Assembly: GCA_026415985.1 (NCBI GenBank)
Contig: JAOAGA010000033.1
Span: 1 to 13,466 of the forward strand
Direction: 5' to 3'
DNA from: Pseudomonadota bacterium
GTDB taxonomy: Bacteria; CALINM01
DNA length: 13,466 bases
Made by a program: the position numbers and the translations under genes. Position 1 is the first letter of the stretch. Each line of letters begins with the position of its first letter. The notes under the pieces are model-generated. The model saw nothing but the letters and a program-made list of their open reading frames with translations. It was not told where the DNA came from and did no database searches. Shown here piece by piece: positions 5,146-12,207 of this stretch.

Positions 5146-5870
5146 ATATTCTTATTGTCACACCAACCTATAACGAGATAGAAAATATTAAGAGATTAAT
5201 ACCATCTTTATTGTCGTTAAGCAACGAGATTAATGTATTGGTAGTAGATGATAACTCTCCCGATGGTACAGGAAACTATGTGGAAGAATTATCAAAGACT
5301 AACGAAAGGGTTTTTGTTCTGAAAAGGCCCGGCAAGATGGGTTTGGGAACAGCCTATGAAGACGGTTTTGCCTGGGCATTAAAACATCCAAAAAACTTTG
5401 ATTATATCATACAGATGGATGCGGATTTTTCCCATAATCCGGAAAAGATACCCGAGTTTATTGAAATGCTAAACAGTAGTTATGATGTAGTGGTAGGTTC
5501 GAGATATCTAAATGGTGTTTCCGTTGTAAACTGGCCTATTAAAAGGCTAATGCTTAGCTATTTTGCCAACTGGTATGCAAGAACCTTTTCGGGCTTAAAG
5601 ATAAGGGATTGTACTGGAGGGTTTAAAGGCTTCAAGAGAGCTGTTCTTGAAAAAATACCCTTTCATCTCATCCGTTCCGATGGCTATGCCTTTCAGATAG
5701 AGGTTAATTATTTCTGCCAGAAATTAGGTTTTAAGATGGTTGAGGTTCCTATAATTTTTATAGACAGACATTCCGGCACATCAAAGCTATCAAGAAGAAT
5801 CGTCTATGAGGCACTTTTCAGGGTTATCGTATTATTTCTTGATAGAATTTTTAATCTAAAGAAGGTTTAG
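5142..5870 (+). CDS. Polyprenol/dolichol-phosphate mannose synthase-like glycosyltransferase (GT2)
   Basis: Family 2 glycosyltransferase of the DPM1 type, which transfers a sugar (classically mannose from GDP-mannose) to a polyprenyl phosphate at the cytoplasmic face of the membrane. The 242 residues are the catalytic domain only. Motifs are TPTYNEIENI (7-16), VVDDNSPDGTG (34-44), the metal-binding DAD in QMDADFSHNP (91-100), VGSRYLNG (118-125), DCTGGFKGFKR (156-166) and RHSGTSKLS (209-217). There is no long C-terminal membrane domain, only a hydrophobic stretch near 222-234. The start is TTG at 5142, overlapping the AOR stop as TTGA. AAGGAGAGGG at 5124-5133 supports it, and the NILIVTPTYNE beginning matches the family. 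The sugar donor is not determinable from sequence alone. Confidence 0.92.
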   Translation: MNILIVTPTYNEIENIKRLIPSLLSLSNEINVLVVDDNSPDGTGNYVEELSKTNERVFVLKRPGKMGLGTAYEDGFAWALKHPKNFDYIIQMDADFSHNPEKIPEFIEMLNSSYDVVVGSRYLNGVSVVNWPIKRLMLSYFANWYARTFSGLKIRDCTGGFKGFKRAVLEKIPFHLIRSDGYAFQIEVNYFCQKLGFKMVEVPIIFIDRHSGTSKLSRRIVYEALFRVIVLFLDRIFNLKKV

Positions 5871-5883
5871 GGAGGATGCGGAT

Positions 5884-6069
5884 ATGATAAATGAGTTCTA
5901 TGCCTTTCTGACTGTAGTTGGTTTCCTGGGTTGGGTGGGTTTTACAATCCTGTTTATATTTAAAGCCTTTGGGGATAAAGGAGAGTTTTATCCAAAAAAA
6001 GGTGCATCAATAGGTGTAGTTATAGCAGTTTTCTACTTTCTTTGGATATTAGGTATGTTAAAGGCATAG
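5884..6069 (+). CDS. Small two-helix membrane protein, unknown function
   Basis: A 61-residue protein with two strongly hydrophobic segments (about 5-27 and 43-58) joined by a short charged loop, KAFGDKGEFYPKKGAS. A GGAGG at 5871-5875 directly follows the glycosyltransferase stop and sits eight bases before the ATG, so it is very likely translated and co-transcribed with that gene. I do not recognise a family. Because the upstream DPM1-like enzyme lacks its own membrane anchor, this could be a membrane partner, by analogy with eukaryotic DPM3, but that is only a neighbour-based guess. The gene is followed by the longest non-coding stretch of the window. Confidence 0.75.
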   Translation: MINEFYAFLTVVGFLGWVGFTILFIFKAFGDKGEFYPKKGASIGVVIAVFYFLWILGMLKA

Positions 6070-6105
6070 TATTATAATCATCTTACCCGGCACGTTTAAA
6101 AAAGA

Positions 6106-6135
6106 TTGACATTATTTCTGATTAAATAGTAAAAT
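6106..6135 (+). promoter_or_regulatory. Sigma-70-type promoter of the metal-transport operon leader
   Basis: TTGACA (6106-6111), a perfect -35 box, and TAAAAT (6130-6135), a five-of-six -10 box, are separated by 18 bases. Transcription would begin near 6141-6143, only a few bases before the long hairpin at 6145. A TATAAT at 6137-6142 also exists but would need a 25-base spacer from this -35. No second promoter is evident between the hairpin and the next gene. Confidence 0.65.
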
Positions 6136-6144
6136 TTATAATAT

Positions 6145-6209
6145 AAGCCACGAAGGCTTAATATTTCAGATTTGAAAATCTGAAAATGCTTTCGTGGCTT
6201 TTTTATTTT
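6145..6209 (+). terminator. Terminator-like leader hairpin, possible attenuator or small RNA
   Basis: AAGCCACGAA (6145-6154) pairs perfectly with TTCGTGGCTT (6191-6200), and the stem extends through G-T, G-C and C-G pairs to about 13 pairs. Inside it a second perfect hairpin, TTTCAGATT / AATCTGAAA (6164-6172 / 6177-6185, loop TGAA), sits above a small internal loop. Six T and then ATTTT follow at 6201-6209, as in an intrinsic terminator. On the + strand the T-run is on the correct side; the complement has no comparable run. It could end transcription from the small membrane protein gene, but the promoter at 6106 places it at the very start of the next transcript. That suggests a leader attenuator or a short RNA of about 65 bases. 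Confidence 0.75.
6164..6185 (+). repeat. Perfect inverted repeat inside the leader hairpin
   Basis: Nine-base arms TTTCAGATT and AATCTGAAA flank a TGAA loop. Besides forming the apical hairpin of the leader RNA, the palindrome lies about 20-45 bases downstream of the predicted transcription start and could instead be a repressor operator. The sequence alone does not separate these two readings. Confidence 0.6.
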
Positions 6210-6260
6210 CCACGAAGCCTGCCCGATTTCTTCTTATTAGCTTGAAAAATTTTTCTTAAC

Positions 6261-6265
6261 GGAGG
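6261..6265 (+). promoter_or_regulatory. Ribosome binding site deciding the barrel protein start
   Basis: GGAGG sits two bases from ATG 6268 and five bases from ATG 6271. Normal spacing favours the second of the two tandem ATG codons. Confidence 0.6.
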
Positions 6266-6270
6266 TTATG

Positions 6271-7032
6271 ATGAAAAAATTTTGTCTTACCTTGTTATTG
6301 GTTTTGTGTCTTTTCAAAATTGGCCATTCTGCTCATCCCCTTATAACAGATGATACAGGTACTCAGGGTAAAGGTAAGTTTCAGCTGGAACTAAACAGTG
6401 AGTATTCTGTTGATAGTCAGGACGGAATAAAGGAAAAGGTTTTTGAGTTTGCTCCTATTTTGAGTTACGGAGTTTTTGATAATCTCGATGTTATCATTTC
6501 TGTTCCTTATCAATCAATTAAGACTGAAGATAATACAACATTAACCGAAAGTAAAGAGAGCGGTGTCAGTGACCTATCTCTTGAATTAAAATGGAGATTT
6601 TTTGAGGCCGATGGTTTAAGTTTTGCTCTGAAACCGGGTGTATCTTTTCCTACGGGAGACGAGAATAAAGGACTTGGGTCAGGTAAAACTGATTACTCAC
6701 TTTTTTTAATAACAACAAAAGAAATTAAGCCAGTCAATCTACACCTCAATTTAGGATATATAAGAAATGAAAACAAGTTTCAGGAGAGAAAAGATATTTT
6801 TCATTTATCCCTTGCAGGAGAGTATGAAGCTACTGAAAAACTTAAACTTGTTGCAAATATGGGAACTGAGACAAATGCAGATCCCGCTTCGAAAACTGAT
6901 CCTGCCTTTGTTTTAATAGGTTTTATTTATTCTTTTTCTGATAAATTCAGCTTTGATGCAGGATATAAATATGGCTTGAATAAACCTGAAACAGATAATA
7001 CCTATCTTTTAGGTATTACTTTTAAGTTCTAA
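6271..7032 (+). CDS. Outer-membrane beta-barrel protein, MetA-pathway/transporter family, likely metal channel
   Basis: About 253 residues with a clear signal peptide (MKKFCLTLLLVLCLFKIG, likely cut after HSA). The mature part starts HPLITDDTGTQGKGKFQLE and is made of alternating amphipathic strands, ending in TFKF with a terminal phenylalanine, as in outer-membrane barrels. The opening phrase and strand pattern fit the family annotated as 'putative MetA-pathway of phenol degradation' (Phenol_MetA_deg), an outer-membrane barrel group with poorly tested functions. It lies 11 bases before the cbiM/nikM gene, so an outer-membrane nickel or cobalt channel is the best contextual guess. Start choice: GGAGG at 6261-6265 is only two bases from the ATG at 6268 but five from the ATG at 6271, which is preferred. 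The two differ by one methionine. Confidence 0.8.
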   Translation: MKKFCLTLLLVLCLFKIGHSAHPLITDDTGTQGKGKFQLELNSEYSVDSQDGIKEKVFEFAPILSYGVFDNLDVIISVPYQSIKTEDNTTLTESKESGVSDLSLELKWRFFEADGLSFALKPGVSFPTGDENKGLGSGKTDYSLFLITTKEIKPVNLHLNLGYIRNENKFQERKDIFHLSLAGEYEATEKLKLVANMGTETNADPASKTDPAFVLIGFIYSFSDKFSFDAGYKYGLNKPETDNTYLLGITFKF

Positions 7033-7043
7033 GGAGGCAAATT

Positions 7044-8072
7044 ATGCATATGGCAGATGCTTTGATAAGCCCGGAGGTAGGAGTTGGTTTCTGGGCTTTG
7101 TCTTTAGGTGGTATTATATACAGTGCCAGGAAGCTTAAGGAAAAGATAGATGAAAAAACTATTCCTCTGATGGGAATTTTAGGTGCCTTTGTCTTTTCAG
7201 CTCAGATGATTAATTTTACAATTCCTGCAACTGGTTCAAGCGGGCATTTAGGTGGGGGTATGCTATTGGCAATACTGTTAGGTCCCTATGCGGGCTTTAT
7301 AGTAATGGCTTCAATATTGACTGTTCAGGCTCTTTTCTTTGCAGACGGCGGACTTCTGGCTTTAGGATGTAACATCTGGAACTTAGGATTTTATACCGCC
7401 TTTGTTGCTTATCCCTTTATTTACAAACCCCTTTTCAAAAATGGTAAAAACATATTTTTAGCAACCATTCTATCTGCAATTTTGGGGCTTCAGATGGGTG
7501 CGTTTAGTGTCGTTTTGCAAACATATTTCTCCGGAGTTACGGAACTTCCTTTTACTACCTTTTTAATGCTTATGCAACCTATTCATCTTGCTATAGGAAT
7601 AGTTGAAGGTATAGTTACAGCAGGTATAATAAGATATCTTATTCAGATCAGACCTGAACTTTTTGAAAGCCTGTCCGGAAACGGTGAAGCTCTGGTAAGT
7701 TTAAACCTAAAAAAGGTTACCGTAACTTTACTTTTACTGACTGTTTTGACTGGTGGGTTTTTAAGCTGGTTTGCATCAACTCATCCCGATGGCTTAGAAT
7801 GGTCAATAGAAAAGATTTATGGAAAGCCAGAAATACCGGAAAAAGACCATAAAATTACAGAGTTTTTGAAAAATTTGCAAGAAAAGATAGCCTTTTTACC
7901 AGATTATTCCTTTAAAAAATCAAACAAAGAACAAGAAAAAGAAGAAGCTGAGAAATATCCGAATTTGGATGCAGGGACAACTTTTTCCGGTCTCATAGGT
8001 TCTGCAATTGTTTTAGCGGTTATATTTTCAACAGGTTTTTTAATAAAAACATTAAAAAGGCGTAAAAATTAA
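7044..8072 (+). CDS. cbiM: CbiM/NikM substrate-binding component of ECF nickel/cobalt transporter, fused PDGLE domain
   Basis: Membrane S component that captures Ni2+ or Co2+ in an energy-coupling-factor importer. The N terminus MHMADALIS is the family hallmark: its free Met1 and His2, together with His68 in SGHLGGG, form the metal site known from NikM and CbiM structures. Several membrane helices follow to about residue 200. The C-terminal part (about 224-342) adds a helix, the PDGLEWS motif (248-254), a charged loop rich in Lys and Glu (about 290-305) and a last helix (about 315-335). This is the CbiN/NikN-like PDGLE module fused to the M component. AAGGAGG at 7031-7037 supports the ATG at 7044, and the His2 requirement makes this start secure. 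The neighbouring hyp genes favour nickel. Confidence 0.95.
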   Translation: MHMADALISPEVGVGFWALSLGGIIYSARKLKEKIDEKTIPLMGILGAFVFSAQMINFTIPATGSSGHLGGGMLLAILLGPYAGFIVMASILTVQALFFADGGLLALGCNIWNLGFYTAFVAYPFIYKPLFKNGKNIFLATILSAILGLQMGAFSVVLQTYFSGVTELPFTTFLMLMQPIHLAIGIVEGIVTAGIIRYLIQIRPELFESLSGNGEALVSLNLKKVTVTLLLLTVLTGGFLSWFASTHPDGLEWSIEKIYGKPEIPEKDHKITEFLKNLQEKIAFLPDYSFKKSNKEQEKEEAEKYPNLDAGTTFSGLIGSAIVLAVIFSTGFLIKTLKRRKN

Positions 8073-8146: not shown

Positions 8147-8185
8147 TTGCAGGGTAGTTCTTTCTTTGTTACCATATTAAGATAA
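8147..8185 (+). CDS. Possible 12-codon upstream ORF coupled to cbiQ/nikQ
   Basis: A TTG at 8147 opens a 12-codon frame (MQGSSFFVTILR) that ends in a TAA overlapping the cbiQ ATG as TAATG. AGAGAGGA at 8132-8139 is well placed before the TTG, while the cbiQ ATG itself has no convincing ribosome site. This looks like a coupling peptide that brings ribosomes to cbiQ. It is too short for coding statistics, and the frame is open upstream to 8096 without a better start codon. Confidence 0.3.
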   Translation: MQGSSFFVTILR

Positions 8186-8985
8186 TGAGATTCGATGAGG
8201 AGTTTTTTAATTTAGGTTATATTGATAAACTTGCTTATCAAAATACCTTTATTCACAGGTTGGATGCAAGAATTAAGGTTTTAATCTCTGTTCTTTTTGT
8301 AATTTCTGTTGTTTCCTTTCCTAAATATGAGATTTTAAGGTTAATGCCTTATTTCTTGTTTCCTGTTATCTTTATAGCCTTGGGCGATATTCCTGTTGGT
8401 TTTTTGGCGAAAAGGGTTTTAATAGTTTCAGGATTTATCTTTTTTATAGCCCTATTCAACCCAATTATTGACAGAAAAGTTGCCTTTTATTTTTTTAATA
8501 TCCCCGTAAGTTATGGGCTCATATCATTTTTCTCGATTTTTATAAAGTTTTTTCTCACCATTAGTATCCTGATTTTATTGGTTGCCACAACATCTTTTTC
8601 AGGTATCTGCTATGCACTGAGATATTTTAGGGTTCCAGAGATATTTGTTAATCAGCTGCTGTTTCTTTACAGATATATTTTTGTTCTTTTTGAAGAGACA
8701 ATGAGGATGGTGAGGGCAAAGGAACTTAGAAGTTTTGGTAACAAAGGGGGGGACATAAAATCTTTTATAAAGTTAACAGGTAACCTTTTAATAAAAAGTA
8801 TAGAAAGGGCGGAGAGAATTTATTACGCCATGTTATCCAGGGGTTTTGTTGGGAGTATGCCCTATTTGAGAAAAAAAAGAATTGACATTTATGATATATC
8901 TTTTTTTGCCATATCTTTTGTATTTTTAGTATTTTTTAGATTTACCAATATATCAACAGCCATAGAAAATTTTATAAAAAGGTGA
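8185..8985 (+). CDS. cbiQ: CbiQ/NikQ transmembrane component of ECF nickel/cobalt transporter
   Basis: T component that couples ATP hydrolysis by CbiO to metal transport by CbiM. The 266-residue protein has the family N terminus (FIHRLDARIKVLI, 22-34), several hydrophobic helices between 31 and 160, and a last one near 236-254. The two cytoplasmic coupling-helix signatures are AKELRSFG (178-185) and AMLSRGF (215-221), the 'A..RG' motifs that contact the ATPase. It lies 112 bases after cbiM, the largest gap inside the transport block, and has no obvious ribosome site of its own. The ATG overlaps the stop of a short possible upstream ORF (TAATG). Eight bases separate it from cbiO. Confidence 0.93.
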   Translation: MRFDEEFFNLGYIDKLAYQNTFIHRLDARIKVLISVLFVISVVSFPKYEILRLMPYFLFPVIFIALGDIPVGFLAKRVLIVSGFIFFIALFNPIIDRKVAFYFFNIPVSYGLISFFSIFIKFFLTISILILLVATTSFSGICYALRYFRVPEIFVNQLLFLYRYIFVLFEETMRMVRAKELRSFGNKGGDIKSFIKLTGNLLIKSIERAERIYYAMLSRGFVGSMPYLRKKRIDIYDISFFAISFVFLVFFRFTNISTAIENFIKR

Positions 8986-8992
8986 TTGGAAA

Positions 8993-9733
8993 ATGAGCCA
9001 TCATATTGTTAAATTTGAGAATGTGGTATATAAATACCCCGATGGGACTTCTGCACTTAACGGTATTAGTTTTCTTATTACCCACGGCGAATCGGTGGGT
9101 ATAGTTGGCGCAAACGGTTCTGGTAAGACAACACTTCTTATGCATTTGAATGGATATCTTCTGCCAAGTAGTGGTGTAATAAATATCGGCGATATTGTCT
9201 TAAATAAAAAAACAAGACAGGAAGTAAGGAAAAAGGTCGGTGTTGTATTTCAGAATCCCGATGACCAGCTTTTTATGCCAACGGTTTATGAGGATGTGGC
9301 CTTCGGACCTATAAACATGGGGATGGAGGAAAGCCTGGTTGAAGAGAAAGTAAAATCTGCCTTAAATACTGTCAATTGTCTTGAACTTATAAACAAGCCA
9401 CCCCATCACCTGTCAGGTGGTCAAAAAAGGGCTATTGCCATTGCAACAGTTATTGCTATGGATCCTGATATACTGGCTATGGATGAGCCCTCATCTAACT
9501 TGGATCCTAAATCAAGACGGGCGCTGATAAACCTTTTGAAAGGCTTCAATCACACCAAGATAATTGCCTCTCATGATCTGGATATGATACTGGATGTCTG
9601 TGAAAGGTGTATTGTAATAAAAGAAGGTATTGTTGTTGCAGACGGTTCCGTCCAAAAGATATTAAGCGACAAAGATTTATTGGAAGAAAACAATCTGGAG
9701 TTGCCTTTAAGATTGCAGAATCTTAAGATATAA
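8993..9733 (+). CDS. cbiO: CbiO/NikO ATP-binding component of ECF nickel/cobalt transporter
   Basis: ABC-type ATPase that powers the importer from the cytoplasmic side, probably as a homodimer since only one ATPase gene is present. All motifs are intact: Walker A GANGSGKTT (39-47), Q-loop Gln87 in VFQNPDDQLF, signature LSGGQKRAIAIA (140-151), Walker B ILAMDEPSS (160-168) with catalytic Glu165, and the switch His194 in ASHD. The FQNPDDQLF phrase and the 246-residue length are typical of CbiO/EcfA proteins. AAGGTGAT at 8979-8986, overlapping the cbiQ stop, serves as ribosome site. A 66-base AT-rich gap without a clear terminator leads to hypC. Confidence 0.96.
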   Translation: MSHHIVKFENVVYKYPDGTSALNGISFLITHGESVGIVGANGSGKTTLLMHLNGYLLPSSGVINIGDIVLNKKTRQEVRKKVGVVFQNPDDQLFMPTVYEDVAFGPINMGMEESLVEEKVKSALNTVNCLELINKPPHHLSGGQKRAIAIATVIAMDPDILAMDEPSSNLDPKSRRALINLLKGFNHTKIIASHDLDMILDVCERCIVIKEGIVVADGSVQKILSDKDLLEENNLELPLRLQNLKI

Positions 9734-9799: not shown

Positions 9800-10033
9800 A
9801 TGTGTTTGGCAATACCGATGAAGGTCGTTAATGTGCTTGACGACTTTTGTACTGTTGAACTTAACGGTGTGTCCAAAACCTGTTTTATAGGTTTTCTGGA
9901 AGATAAAATTGATATCGGAGATTTTTTACTTGTCCACTCCGGCATGGCAATTAAGAAGTTAAATTTAGAGGAGTCAGAGGCAATTCTTAAGGAGATTTCA
10001 TTACTTATTGAAGGAGAGTCAAGTGAATCCTGA
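9800..10033 (+). CDS. hypC: HypC, NiFe-hydrogenase maturation chaperone
   Basis: Small chaperone that, with HypD, forms the scaffold on which the Fe(CN)2CO group is assembled and then handed to the hydrogenase large-subunit precursor. The 77 residues begin MCLAIPMKV, and the exposed Cys2 (after Met removal) is the essential iron-binding residue, which makes the start at 9800 certain. FLLVHSGMAIKKL (47-59) is the conserved second half of the OB-like fold. GGAGG at 9791-9795 precedes it. The 3' end overlaps hypD by 11 bases, which fits the known HypC-HypD complex. It opens the hyp block after the importer genes; TAAAAT at 9770-9775 could be a -10 box, but no matching -35 box is seen. Confidence 0.97.
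   Translation: MCLAIPMKVVNVLDDFCTVELNGVSKTCFIGFLEDKIDIGDFLLVHSGMAIKKLNLEESEAILKEISLLIEGESSES
10011..10016 (+). promoter_or_regulatory. Ribosome binding site deciding the hypD GTG start
   Basis: AAGGAG inside the end of hypC lies six bases before the GTG at 10023. The upstream in-frame TTG at 10008 precedes this site and would encode it, so it is not a credible start. Confidence 0.75.
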
Positions 10034-11126
10034 TATTTTTAAAGATAAAGAGCTTGTTAAAAAAACTCTCAATGCCCTGAAAAAGAAAGTAGAAAAACTC
10101 GAAAATATCAGATTAATGGAGTTTTGTGGAACTCATACCCATAATATTTTTCAGTATGGTTTTAGAAATGCCTTTTTACCTCATATAAGATTTATTGCAG
10201 GACCGGGTTGTCCGGTCTGTGTTACTTCTGAGGAAGATTTAGCAGAGGTGAAGTTTCTTTTTGATAATTATGATGTTGGAATAATAGCCTATGGGGATTT
10301 GTTAAAAGTTCCTTTAAAAGGAAAAAGCCTTTTGGATTACAGAGCGGAAGGAAGACCTGTAGAGGTAGTTTACAGTGCTATAGATGCAGTTAAGATTGCA
10401 GAAAACAAAAAAGATAAAGAGTGGGTATTTCTTGGGGTTGGCTTTGAAACAACTACTCCCGGGACTTCTGCAAGTATAATGATAGCTGAAAAAAAGGGTA
10501 TTAAAAATCTTAGCTACCTATCTTTTCACAAAAATACCAAAGCAGTTCTAAAAGCTCTTGGAACTTTAGGGAATTTATACGCCGATGGTGTAATACTACC
10601 GGGTCACGTTTCTGCAGTAGTTGGTTATAATTATTTCAGAGAAATTGAAAAATTTGGTATTCCTGCAGTCGTAGTTGGTTTTGAACCCCTTGATCTGCTG
10701 GCTGGCATTAGCGAACTGATTGATATGATTTTGAAAAAAGAGGTAGGAATTAAGTGTGCCTATCCCCGGGCTGTTAATGAAAGGGGCAATGAAAAGATGC
10801 TAAGGGCAATCGAAGATACCTTTGATACAATAGATGCTTACTGGCGTGGTCTTGGAATAATAGAGAACGGTGGTTATGAATTAAAGAATTTCTATGACGG
10901 ATTTAATGCAAGGAAAAAATACTCCATTCCCAAAGAGCTTCCAGTAGATAAGGAAAAAGGCTGTAGATGCGGAGACGTATTAATTGGCAGGATAGAACCT
11001 ACGGATTGTCCTTTATTTAAAAAGGTCTGTAGCCCTGCAAATCCTATAGGTCCCTGTATGGTCTCCTATGAAGGAACCTGTCTTGCCTATTATAAATGGG
11101 GGGTTGAAAACCAACGTTTGGATTAA
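10023..11126 (+). CDS. hypD: HypD, Fe-S scaffold for hydrogenase Fe(CN)2CO assembly
   Basis: Iron-sulfur protein that with HypC and HypE assembles the Fe(CN)2CO cofactor of NiFe hydrogenases in the cytoplasm. Counting from the GTG start (367 residues), the conserved motifs are EFCGTHTH with Cys35, GPGCPVC with Cys63 and Cys66, GFETTTPG (about 140-147) and LPGHVSAVVGYNYF (192-205). The C-terminal [4Fe-4S] region holds CRCGD, TDCPLF, KKVCSP, GPCMVS and GTCLAYY, with cysteines at about 314, 316, 329, 336, 345 and 353. The GTG at 10023 is chosen because AAGGAG lies six bases upstream and NPDIFKD is a normal beginning. It overlaps hypC by 11 bases, while a 76-base gap separates it from hypE. Confidence 0.97.
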   Translation: MNPDIFKDKELVKKTLNALKKKVEKLENIRLMEFCGTHTHNIFQYGFRNAFLPHIRFIAGPGCPVCVTSEEDLAEVKFLFDNYDVGIIAYGDLLKVPLKGKSLLDYRAEGRPVEVVYSAIDAVKIAENKKDKEWVFLGVGFETTTPGTSASIMIAEKKGIKNLSYLSFHKNTKAVLKALGTLGNLYADGVILPGHVSAVVGYNYFREIEKFGIPAVVVGFEPLDLLAGISELIDMILKKEVGIKCAYPRAVNERGNEKMLRAIEDTFDTIDAYWRGLGIIENGGYELKNFYDGFNARKKYSIPKELPVDKEKGCRCGDVLIGRIEPTDCPLFKKVCSPANPIGPCMVSYEGTCLAYYKWGVENQRLD

Positions 11127-11202: not shown

Positions 11203-12207
11203 ATGAACGAAGGGAAAAAGATATCACTTAGCTTAGGAAGCGGAGGGAAGATCAGCTTTGATTTTGTTAAAAAAGAGATTATATCAAGGTTTTCTAACCC
11301 TATTCTTGACTCTCTTGGCGATGGTGCTAATATTTTAAATAATCTGGTGGTTACAACTGATAACTTTACAGTTCATCCGGAGTTTTTTGATGGCGGAAAT
11401 ATAGGAATTTTATCCTTTTGCGGTATGGTTAATGATTTGGCATCTATGGCAAGTAAACCTATGTATATGACAATGGGGCTTGTTATCGAGGAAGGTTATG
11501 ATTATAAAAAACTTTTAAAGATAATCGATGATATAAAAAATCTTGCCGATAATTTTGATGTAAAGCTAATTTGCGGTGATACGAAGGTTGTGGAAAAAGG
11601 GAAAATGGAAGGAATCCATATTTCAATTACAGGTATTGGTTTAAGGATGACCGATTACAGTTTGCCGGTTAAAAACTATAAAAATGGTGATAAGATAATT
11701 TTGACGGGCACACTGGGAGAGCATACCATTTCTGTCTTAAAGGCAAAAGGGGCAATCGAGTTTGATGGTGTTATCAACTCCGATGTGGCTCCACTCTGTG
11801 GCGTCATAGAAAACCTGATTAAGGAAGGTGTCAGACCAAAATTTATACGGGATGTTACAAGAGGGGGCTTTTCTGCTGTTCTTAATGAGCTTTCCTACAT
11901 CGGTAATATTGAGATTTTGATAGATGAGGAAAAGATTCCTGTCAATGATTCGGTAAAGGCTATATGCGATATTTATGGTTACGATATATATAGCTTGGCC
12001 TGTGAGGGTAGAATGGTCATTGTGGTGGAGGACGAAGAGGCTGAAAAAGCGGTTTCTGTTTTAAAGGATTTTGAGGTTTCGAAGGGATCATCCGTTGTAG
12101 GAGAGATTTTAAGCAATGATAGACAGCTTGTTGTATTAAAAACCATGTATGGCGGAAAGACAATTCTTGATATGCCATTAGGCGAGATATTACCAAGAAT
12201 ATGTTAA
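11203..12207 (+). CDS. hypE: HypE, carbamoyl dehydratase for hydrogenase cyanide ligands
   Basis: ATP-dependent enzyme of the PurM/SelD fold that converts the carbamoyl group placed on its C-terminal cysteine by HypF into thiocyanate, the source of CN for the active-site iron. The 334-residue protein ends in PRIC, the universal HypE tail with the acceptor Cys334. Other landmarks are SLGSGGK near the start (10-16), VTTDNFTVHPEFF (50-62), GMVNDLASMASKP (74-86), ICGDTKVVEKG (122-132) and RDVTRGGFSAVLNE (221-234). A GAGGA at 11191-11195 supports the ATG at 11203. HypF, needed to load it, is not in the window, nor are hypA and hypB. The aldolase gene follows after 18 bases, suggesting shared transcription. 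Confidence 0.97.
   Translation: MNEGKKISLSLGSGGKISFDFVKKEIISRFSNPILDSLGDGANILNNLVVTTDNFTVHPEFFDGGNIGILSFCGMVNDLASMASKPMYMTMGLVIEEGYDYKKLLKIIDDIKNLADNFDVKLICGDTKVVEKGKMEGIHISITGIGLRMTDYSLPVKNYKNGDKIILTGTLGEHTISVLKAKGAIEFDGVINSDVAPLCGVIENLIKEGVRPKFIRDVTRGGFSAVLNELSYIGNIEILIDEEKIPVNDSVKAICDIYGYDIYSLACEGRMVIVVEDEEAEKAVSVLKDFEVSKGSSVVGEILSNDRQLVVLKTMYGGKTILDMPLGEILPRIC

Follow-up and report, generated by a model that had tools for sequence, protein, structure and literature searches.

Nickel importers, NikKMLQO systems and TonB-dependent receptors are known targets of the NikR repressor and its operators, and the RNA element described here has a similar regulon. Unlike this element, NikR is a DNA-binding protein, and the two were mutually exclusive in the genomes tested. 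According to a 2009 survey, fewer than half of the organisms that carry NikABCDE also have NikR, from which regulation independent of NikR was inferred (PMC2667541). NikR is missing from many nickel-using bacteria, and the element is a concrete candidate for the control of their nickel uptake. In the literature searched, in which subscription papers were only partly covered, no nickel-uptake leader RNA or signature sequence was described.

Several described RNAs share features with the element. The NiCo (czcD) riboswitch (RF02683) is also a cis-acting RNA tied to nickel and cobalt genes, and is a larger RNA with four helices. It sits 5' of putative cation efflux genes (PMC9294342), whereas the element consists of two small hairpins and precedes import genes. 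The RNA targets of the ANTAR proteins NasR, AmiR and EutV resemble the element in having two hairpins with conserved loops, one of them overlapping a terminator, and in being off by default; their loops are hexaloops with A1 and G4 (PMC8164766). In contrast, the loops of the element are ANGAA (five bases) in the first hairpin and mostly tetraloops or AUGAA (five bases) in the second. An ANTAR-domain protein was found in 3 of 53 element-bearing genomes and was absent from the other 50, including G000 and G001. An ANTAR target was rejected on both grounds, loop size and the missing protein.

The TwoAYGGAY RNA (RF01731), whose name denotes two AYGGAY motifs, was a two-motif look-alike in a permissive scan (21 bits, E 0.43); this match fell far under the gathering score of 43, and the loops of the element have no GGA core. 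Guanidine-IV riboswitches and the Gd4v motif are, like the element, small, built into a terminator and often in control of transport genes. The guanidine-IV motif GGAM-1 reportedly has no conserved ACG trimers and stands before guanidine-linked genes (PMC7736828); Gd4v is associated with a different set of genes (PMC9788692). Gene context and the published descriptions led to the rejection of both, and neither gave an Rfam match.

With Rfam 15, no family matched the element at its gathering score, and permissive scans returned only sub-threshold noise. RF02683 was absent from the gathering-score scan and from the permissive matches, and RF00174 (cobalamin) was found nowhere in the window, the whole 13,466-nucleotide stretch analysed, by either scan; the same type of scan detected RF00174 at another locus (L012). 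The initial annotation, made from the sequence alone, had judged the hairpin too short for a cobalamin riboswitch and had not recognised the NiCo (czcD) pattern in it. The element appears to be a new class of an established type of device, a transcription attenuator or riboswitch candidate.

The leader and operon in the window

The leader lies upstream of an operon that begins with a putative nickel/cobalt channel and contains cbiM, cbiQ and cbiO genes:

6268..7032, plus strand: outer-membrane beta-barrel (Phenol_MetA_deg; Pfam E 4e-21), putative Ni/Co channel, first controlled gene
7044..8072, plus strand: cbiM/nikM with fused PDGLE domain, substrate component of an ECF Ni/Co importer (CbiM E 9.7e-62)
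8185-8985, plus strand: cbiQ, transmembrane component (Pfam)
8993-9733, plus strand: cbiO, ATPase component (Pfam)
9800-10033, plus strand: hypC (Pfam)
10008-11126, plus strand: hypD (Pfam)
11203-12207, plus strand: hypE (from reading of the translation only)

Since hypC, hypD and hypE belong to [NiFe]-hydrogenase maturation, the operon context points to nickel. Upstream of the barrel gene, the following leader features were identified:

6106..6135, plus strand: sigma-70-type promoter TTGACA-18-TAAAAT (11 of 12 consensus matches)
6145..6159, plus strand: hairpin 1 (P1), AAGCC-ACGAA-GGCTT = AAGCCACGAAGGCTT (from sequence; conserved in 99 + 80 copies)
6164..6185, plus strand: hairpin 2 (P2), TTTCAGATT-[TGAA]-AATCTGAAA (from the fold and family-wide stem and loop scores)
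6188..6200, plus strand: terminator 3' arm GCTTTCGTGGCTT (from the fold and covariation on alignments A7 and A9)
6199..6209, plus strand: intrinsic terminator T-run TTTTTTATTTT (from sequence)
6210..6223, plus strand: second, decayed motif copy CCACGAAG-CCTGCC, just after the T-run (from sequence)

In a promoter scan, the -35 box TTGACA (6106-6111) and -10 box TAAAAT (6130-6135), separated by an 18-base spacer, ranked first of 10 promoter-like sites in 5500-7500 (shuffles 5.8 +/- 2.5). Transcription is predicted to start at about 6142-6145, the foot of hairpin 1, and no plus-strand promoter-like site was found from 6136 up to the barrel ATG at 6268. A 61-amino-acid hydrophobic open reading frame without a Pfam match lies just 5' of the promoter (5884-6069).

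The sequence at 6145-6200 folded at -28 kcal/mol (z = -6.8 to -8.0), and no shuffled sequence was equally stable. The outer stem has 13 pairs (6145-6157 with 6188-6200) and the inner stem, P2, pairs 6164-6172 with 6177-6185 around the loop TGAA, with a T-run at 6199-6204. This hairpin was missed by a simple terminator scan because the scan permits loops of only 3-8 bases. The promoter, the two-tier hairpin with its T-run and the lack of a second promoter before the barrel gene had all been described in the initial annotation and were recovered here. Beyond that description, the outer 5' arm also folds locally, and a partial second copy of the motif is present at 6210-6223, resembling the single, terminator-free element of the relative G001 (CCACGAAGGCCTGCC). 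P1, with the signature sequence CCACGAAGG, doubles as the 5' arm of the terminator, and pairing of the 3' arm at 6188-6200 with 6145-6157 and hairpin 1 are mutually exclusive. Judged from sequence, fold and covariation, the leader has the predicted parts of an intrinsic transcription attenuator: its own promoter, two exclusive folds and a terminator before the gene.

Conservation of the element

The small phylum of the window was sampled by three genomes, G000, G001 and G002. The latter two represent a different genus, and barrel-protein identity is 60-62%. Their leaders (L042 5905-6005 and L043 58-144) keep the promoter, CCACGAAGGC at the start and a second hairpin, GCGAAA-AGAA-TTTCGC; they have no terminator, though hairpins 1 and 2 are kept. 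In G001, the predicted fold of the leader covers the ribosome-binding site, which suggests a translational version of the element. A terminator private to the window was rejected, as the same CCACGAAGGC is in the same place in both relatives. The remaining exact CCACGAAGGC sites in G000 and G001 were within coding genes and were attributed to chance.

A barrel-protein scan of named genomes yielded 80 loci in Nitrospirota, Desulfobacterota and other groups. Several of these carry CCACGAAG upstream, with a second hairpin, CTTTCGTGG and a T-run behind it; extra copies were found upstream of a cbiM without a barrel gene (L061) and elsewhere. A first covariance model, built from eight copies, detected the element in 74 of 395 Nitrospirota genomes (the phylum of G146), and a second, built from 93 matches, in 90 of 395 Desulfobacterota genomes (the phylum of G147), so that, in the two phyla, about one genome in five among those searched carries it. 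Element-bearing genomes had from one to eight matches, and at six loci intact copies stood in tandem, 8-12 bases apart. No match was found in the four genomes searched of another phylum, and weak R1 matches of 22-32 bits were mostly ordinary short terminators. The element thus spans at least three phylum-level groups: Nitrospirota, Desulfobacterota and the small phylum of the window. The covariance-model search of homologous loci proposed in the initial annotation returned the same element before nickel/cobalt uptake genes, with a covarying terminator stem; the opposite outcome that it had envisaged, stems unconserved in relatives, did not occur, the element being conserved both in relatives and in other phyla.

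Structure and covariation

The element is about 60 bases long and consists of hairpin 1 (GCC-ANGAA-GGC), hairpin 2 and a 3' arm that re-pairs with hairpin 1 into an intrinsic terminator. Within CC-AYGAA-GG, the CC, GAA and GG were invariant in 99 distinct copies, an invariance of the 5' arm that is partly by construction, since the seeds were collected by a search for CCACGAAG. In 80 Desulfobacterota copies, the fourth base was any of the four and covaried with its partner in the terminator arm (CG 59, TA 11, GC 6, AT 3 and one mismatch). Across the terminator stem, double-change cells numbered 20 in the first set (3.1 in shuffles) and 41 in the second (5.5 in shuffles), on alignments (A7 and A9) that were themselves fitted to the model; most of this signal was lost when the partner position was slid. 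Outside the CC/GG, P1 was nearly always pairable (first outer pair in 98 of 99 copies), and its own covariation was weak (G-C 88, G-U 8, A-U 2).

P2 could not be aligned family-wide by MAFFT and was scored for each sequence against shuffles. It was found in most copies, with a stem score of 11.9 as against 6.2 in shuffles, and 73 of 99 copies had the loop consensus, compared to 2.4% in shuffles. The commonest loops were AGAA, AGCA and UGAA (four bases) and AUGAA (five bases). Sigma-70-type promoters directly preceded the element in 28% of 186 copies, compared to 4.5% in shuffles. The terminator fold was better than a fold with P1 forced by a median of 12-13 kcal/mol; transcripts are therefore expected to terminate by default, and the polymerase would read through only if something held P1 and P2.

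Genes downstream of the element

Pfam scans covered the first downstream open reading frame of 96 copies in the first phylum set and 68 in the second (Desulfobacterota). In the first set, these were CbiM (22), barrel (19), OprB (15), methyltransferase (9), DsbD_2-like proteins of NicO type (6), TonB (5), TonB-dependent receptor (4), CbiQ (2), DUF4198/NikK (1) and CooT (1); an LGPDH motif was visible in the DsbD_2-like sequences. In Desulfobacterota, TonB-dependent receptors were the most frequent (15), with CbiM (8), barrel (5), TonB (5), FecCD (4), methyltransferase (4), ExbB (3), OprB (3), FmdE (2) and DUF4198 (2). The genes that follow, named by reading rather than by profile, were NikK-CbiM-NikL-CbiQ-like at OprB loci, and a TonB-dependent receptor and a NikA-like binding protein at methyltransferase loci. 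Proteins downstream of the element resembled another such protein in 139 of 164 cases; in a control, 7 of 154 open reading frames near other T-runs resembled these proteins.

Collectively, these profiles suggest a regulon devoted overwhelmingly to nickel/cobalt acquisition, made up of CbiM/NikM, NikK, barrels and porins, TonB/ExbB, TonB-dependent receptors and NicO-like permeases. Gene content alone does not separate cobalt from nickel. Some copies, mainly in Desulfobacterota, stand before genes that have no evident metal link (epimerase, flavin reductase, transposase). The element defines a regulon in environmental bacteria.

One locus (L307; G505 contig 15) is a nickel-acquisition island with several element copies and genes for a methyltransferase, TonB-dependent receptors, NikA-like and DUF4198-like proteins, TonB-ExbB-ExbD and a FecCD-type transporter. 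Its methyltransferase (FWDxxAKWYxLWxEH) could be a member of a metallophore pathway. At L308 (8026-8553), a copy precedes what sequence reading indicates is a likely [NiFe]-hydrogenase maturation protease, so the regulon may reach past transport.

Mutual exclusion with NikR

A search for the NikR_C domain (PF08753) detected it in 0 of 53 genomes with the element, G000, G001 and G002 among them, as against 17 of 27 genomes without it (Fisher p = 8e-11), a comparison in which phylogeny was uncontrolled, the element-free genomes were drawn from the low end of a list along which element-positive and element-negative genomes alternate, and the two groups may differ in phylogeny as well. Of 78 barrel loci, 14 had a NikR gene no more than 2 kb upstream and 7 had the element, and no locus had both. 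At L012, the barrel gene is downstream of the cobalamin riboswitch detected by the RF00174 scan. With NikR, a cobalamin RNA or the element before the barrel gene, the same gene is therefore under different control in different lineages. Among the loci where a nikR gene directly precedes the barrel gene, L010, L011 and others have a GTAGCACGAT...GTAAC-like site, which may be the NikR operator.

Proposed mechanism and alternatives

We consider it probable that the element is a nickel-status transcription attenuator replacing NikR, off by default and opened by stabilisation of P1/P2, and, as part of the same judgement, that the window feature is the leader of a barrel-cbiMQO operon for nickel import and belongs to this widespread attenuator family. 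RNA polymerase would start just 5' of hairpin 1. In the default state, the 3' arm would displace hairpin 1 to form the intrinsic terminator, and transcription would stop after about 60 bases. Under nickel shortage, something would stabilise the two-hairpin form (P1 plus P2, with their related NGAA-type loops); with P1 and P2 held, the terminator could not form and the import genes would be transcribed. We infer the nickel signal from gene content and the exclusion of NikR, and the direction of the switch is likewise inferred. The initial annotation had offered two readings, a conditional attenuator that senses a metal or the cell's metal status, or an abundant short RNA. The first of these gains support from the position of the element before nickel/cobalt uptake genes in at least three phylum-level groups, from covariation in the terminator stem and from NikR exclusion in the genomes tested.

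The agent acting on P1/P2 may be an RNA-binding protein or a ligand, and these two possibilities are more specific forms of the attenuator explanation. To open when nickel runs short, the RNA would need a signal that positively reports starvation, and a simple riboswitch that binds nickel would not supply one. It is quite possible, if tentative, that a metal-responsive RNA-binding protein in its apo form recognises the paired NGAA-type loops and blocks termination. An apo-protein suits the logic of starvation, which an RNA-binding protein fits best, and the energetics are default-off; two similar adjacent loops, one overlapping the terminator, also resemble the dual-hairpin targets of ANTAR proteins (PMC8164766, PMC3369931). 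However, ANTAR proteins are missing from 50 of the 53 element-bearing genomes, no other partner was identified, and such a partner would need to be conserved over at least three phyla.

Somewhat more doubtful is an orphan riboswitch, in which P1 plus P2 would form an aptamer for Ni2+/Co2+ or a nickel-related metabolite that decides between terminator and read-through. No partner protein was found and ANTAR was excluded, and the spread over three phylum-level groups would suit an RNA sensor. The P1-P2 block is reused in G001 with another output, a hairpin covering the ribosome-binding site, as modular aptamers are, and the tandem copies are reminiscent of some tandem riboswitches. On the other hand, the core is very small, with two short hairpins, and a ligand that stabilised P1 would turn the importers on in its presence, the wrong sense for a nickel sensor. 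The element does show what is looked for in a riboswitch, an aptamer-like core conserved across phyla together with a specific regulon; that it is a new metal-sensing RNA (riboswitch) class controlling nickel uptake in place of NikR in Nitrospirota, Desulfobacterota and the phylum of the window is a reading we hold with considerable reservation.

A plain terminator, one that only stops transcripts arriving from upstream or that attenuates partially and constitutively and senses nothing, is improbable. The structure makes a good intrinsic terminator, but a promoter of its own lies 5' of it, both in the window and family-wide; signature loops, a second hairpin, a specific regulon and NikR exclusion are unexpected for a generic terminator, and P1 and P2 persist in G001 and G002 where the terminator does not. 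That GCC-ANGAA-GGC, a near-palindrome near the transcription start, is a repressor site with incidental hairpins is very improbable, since its variable base covaries with a terminator-arm partner about 30-60 bases away through all four Watson-Crick pairs, which indicates RNA pairing and not a DNA operator.
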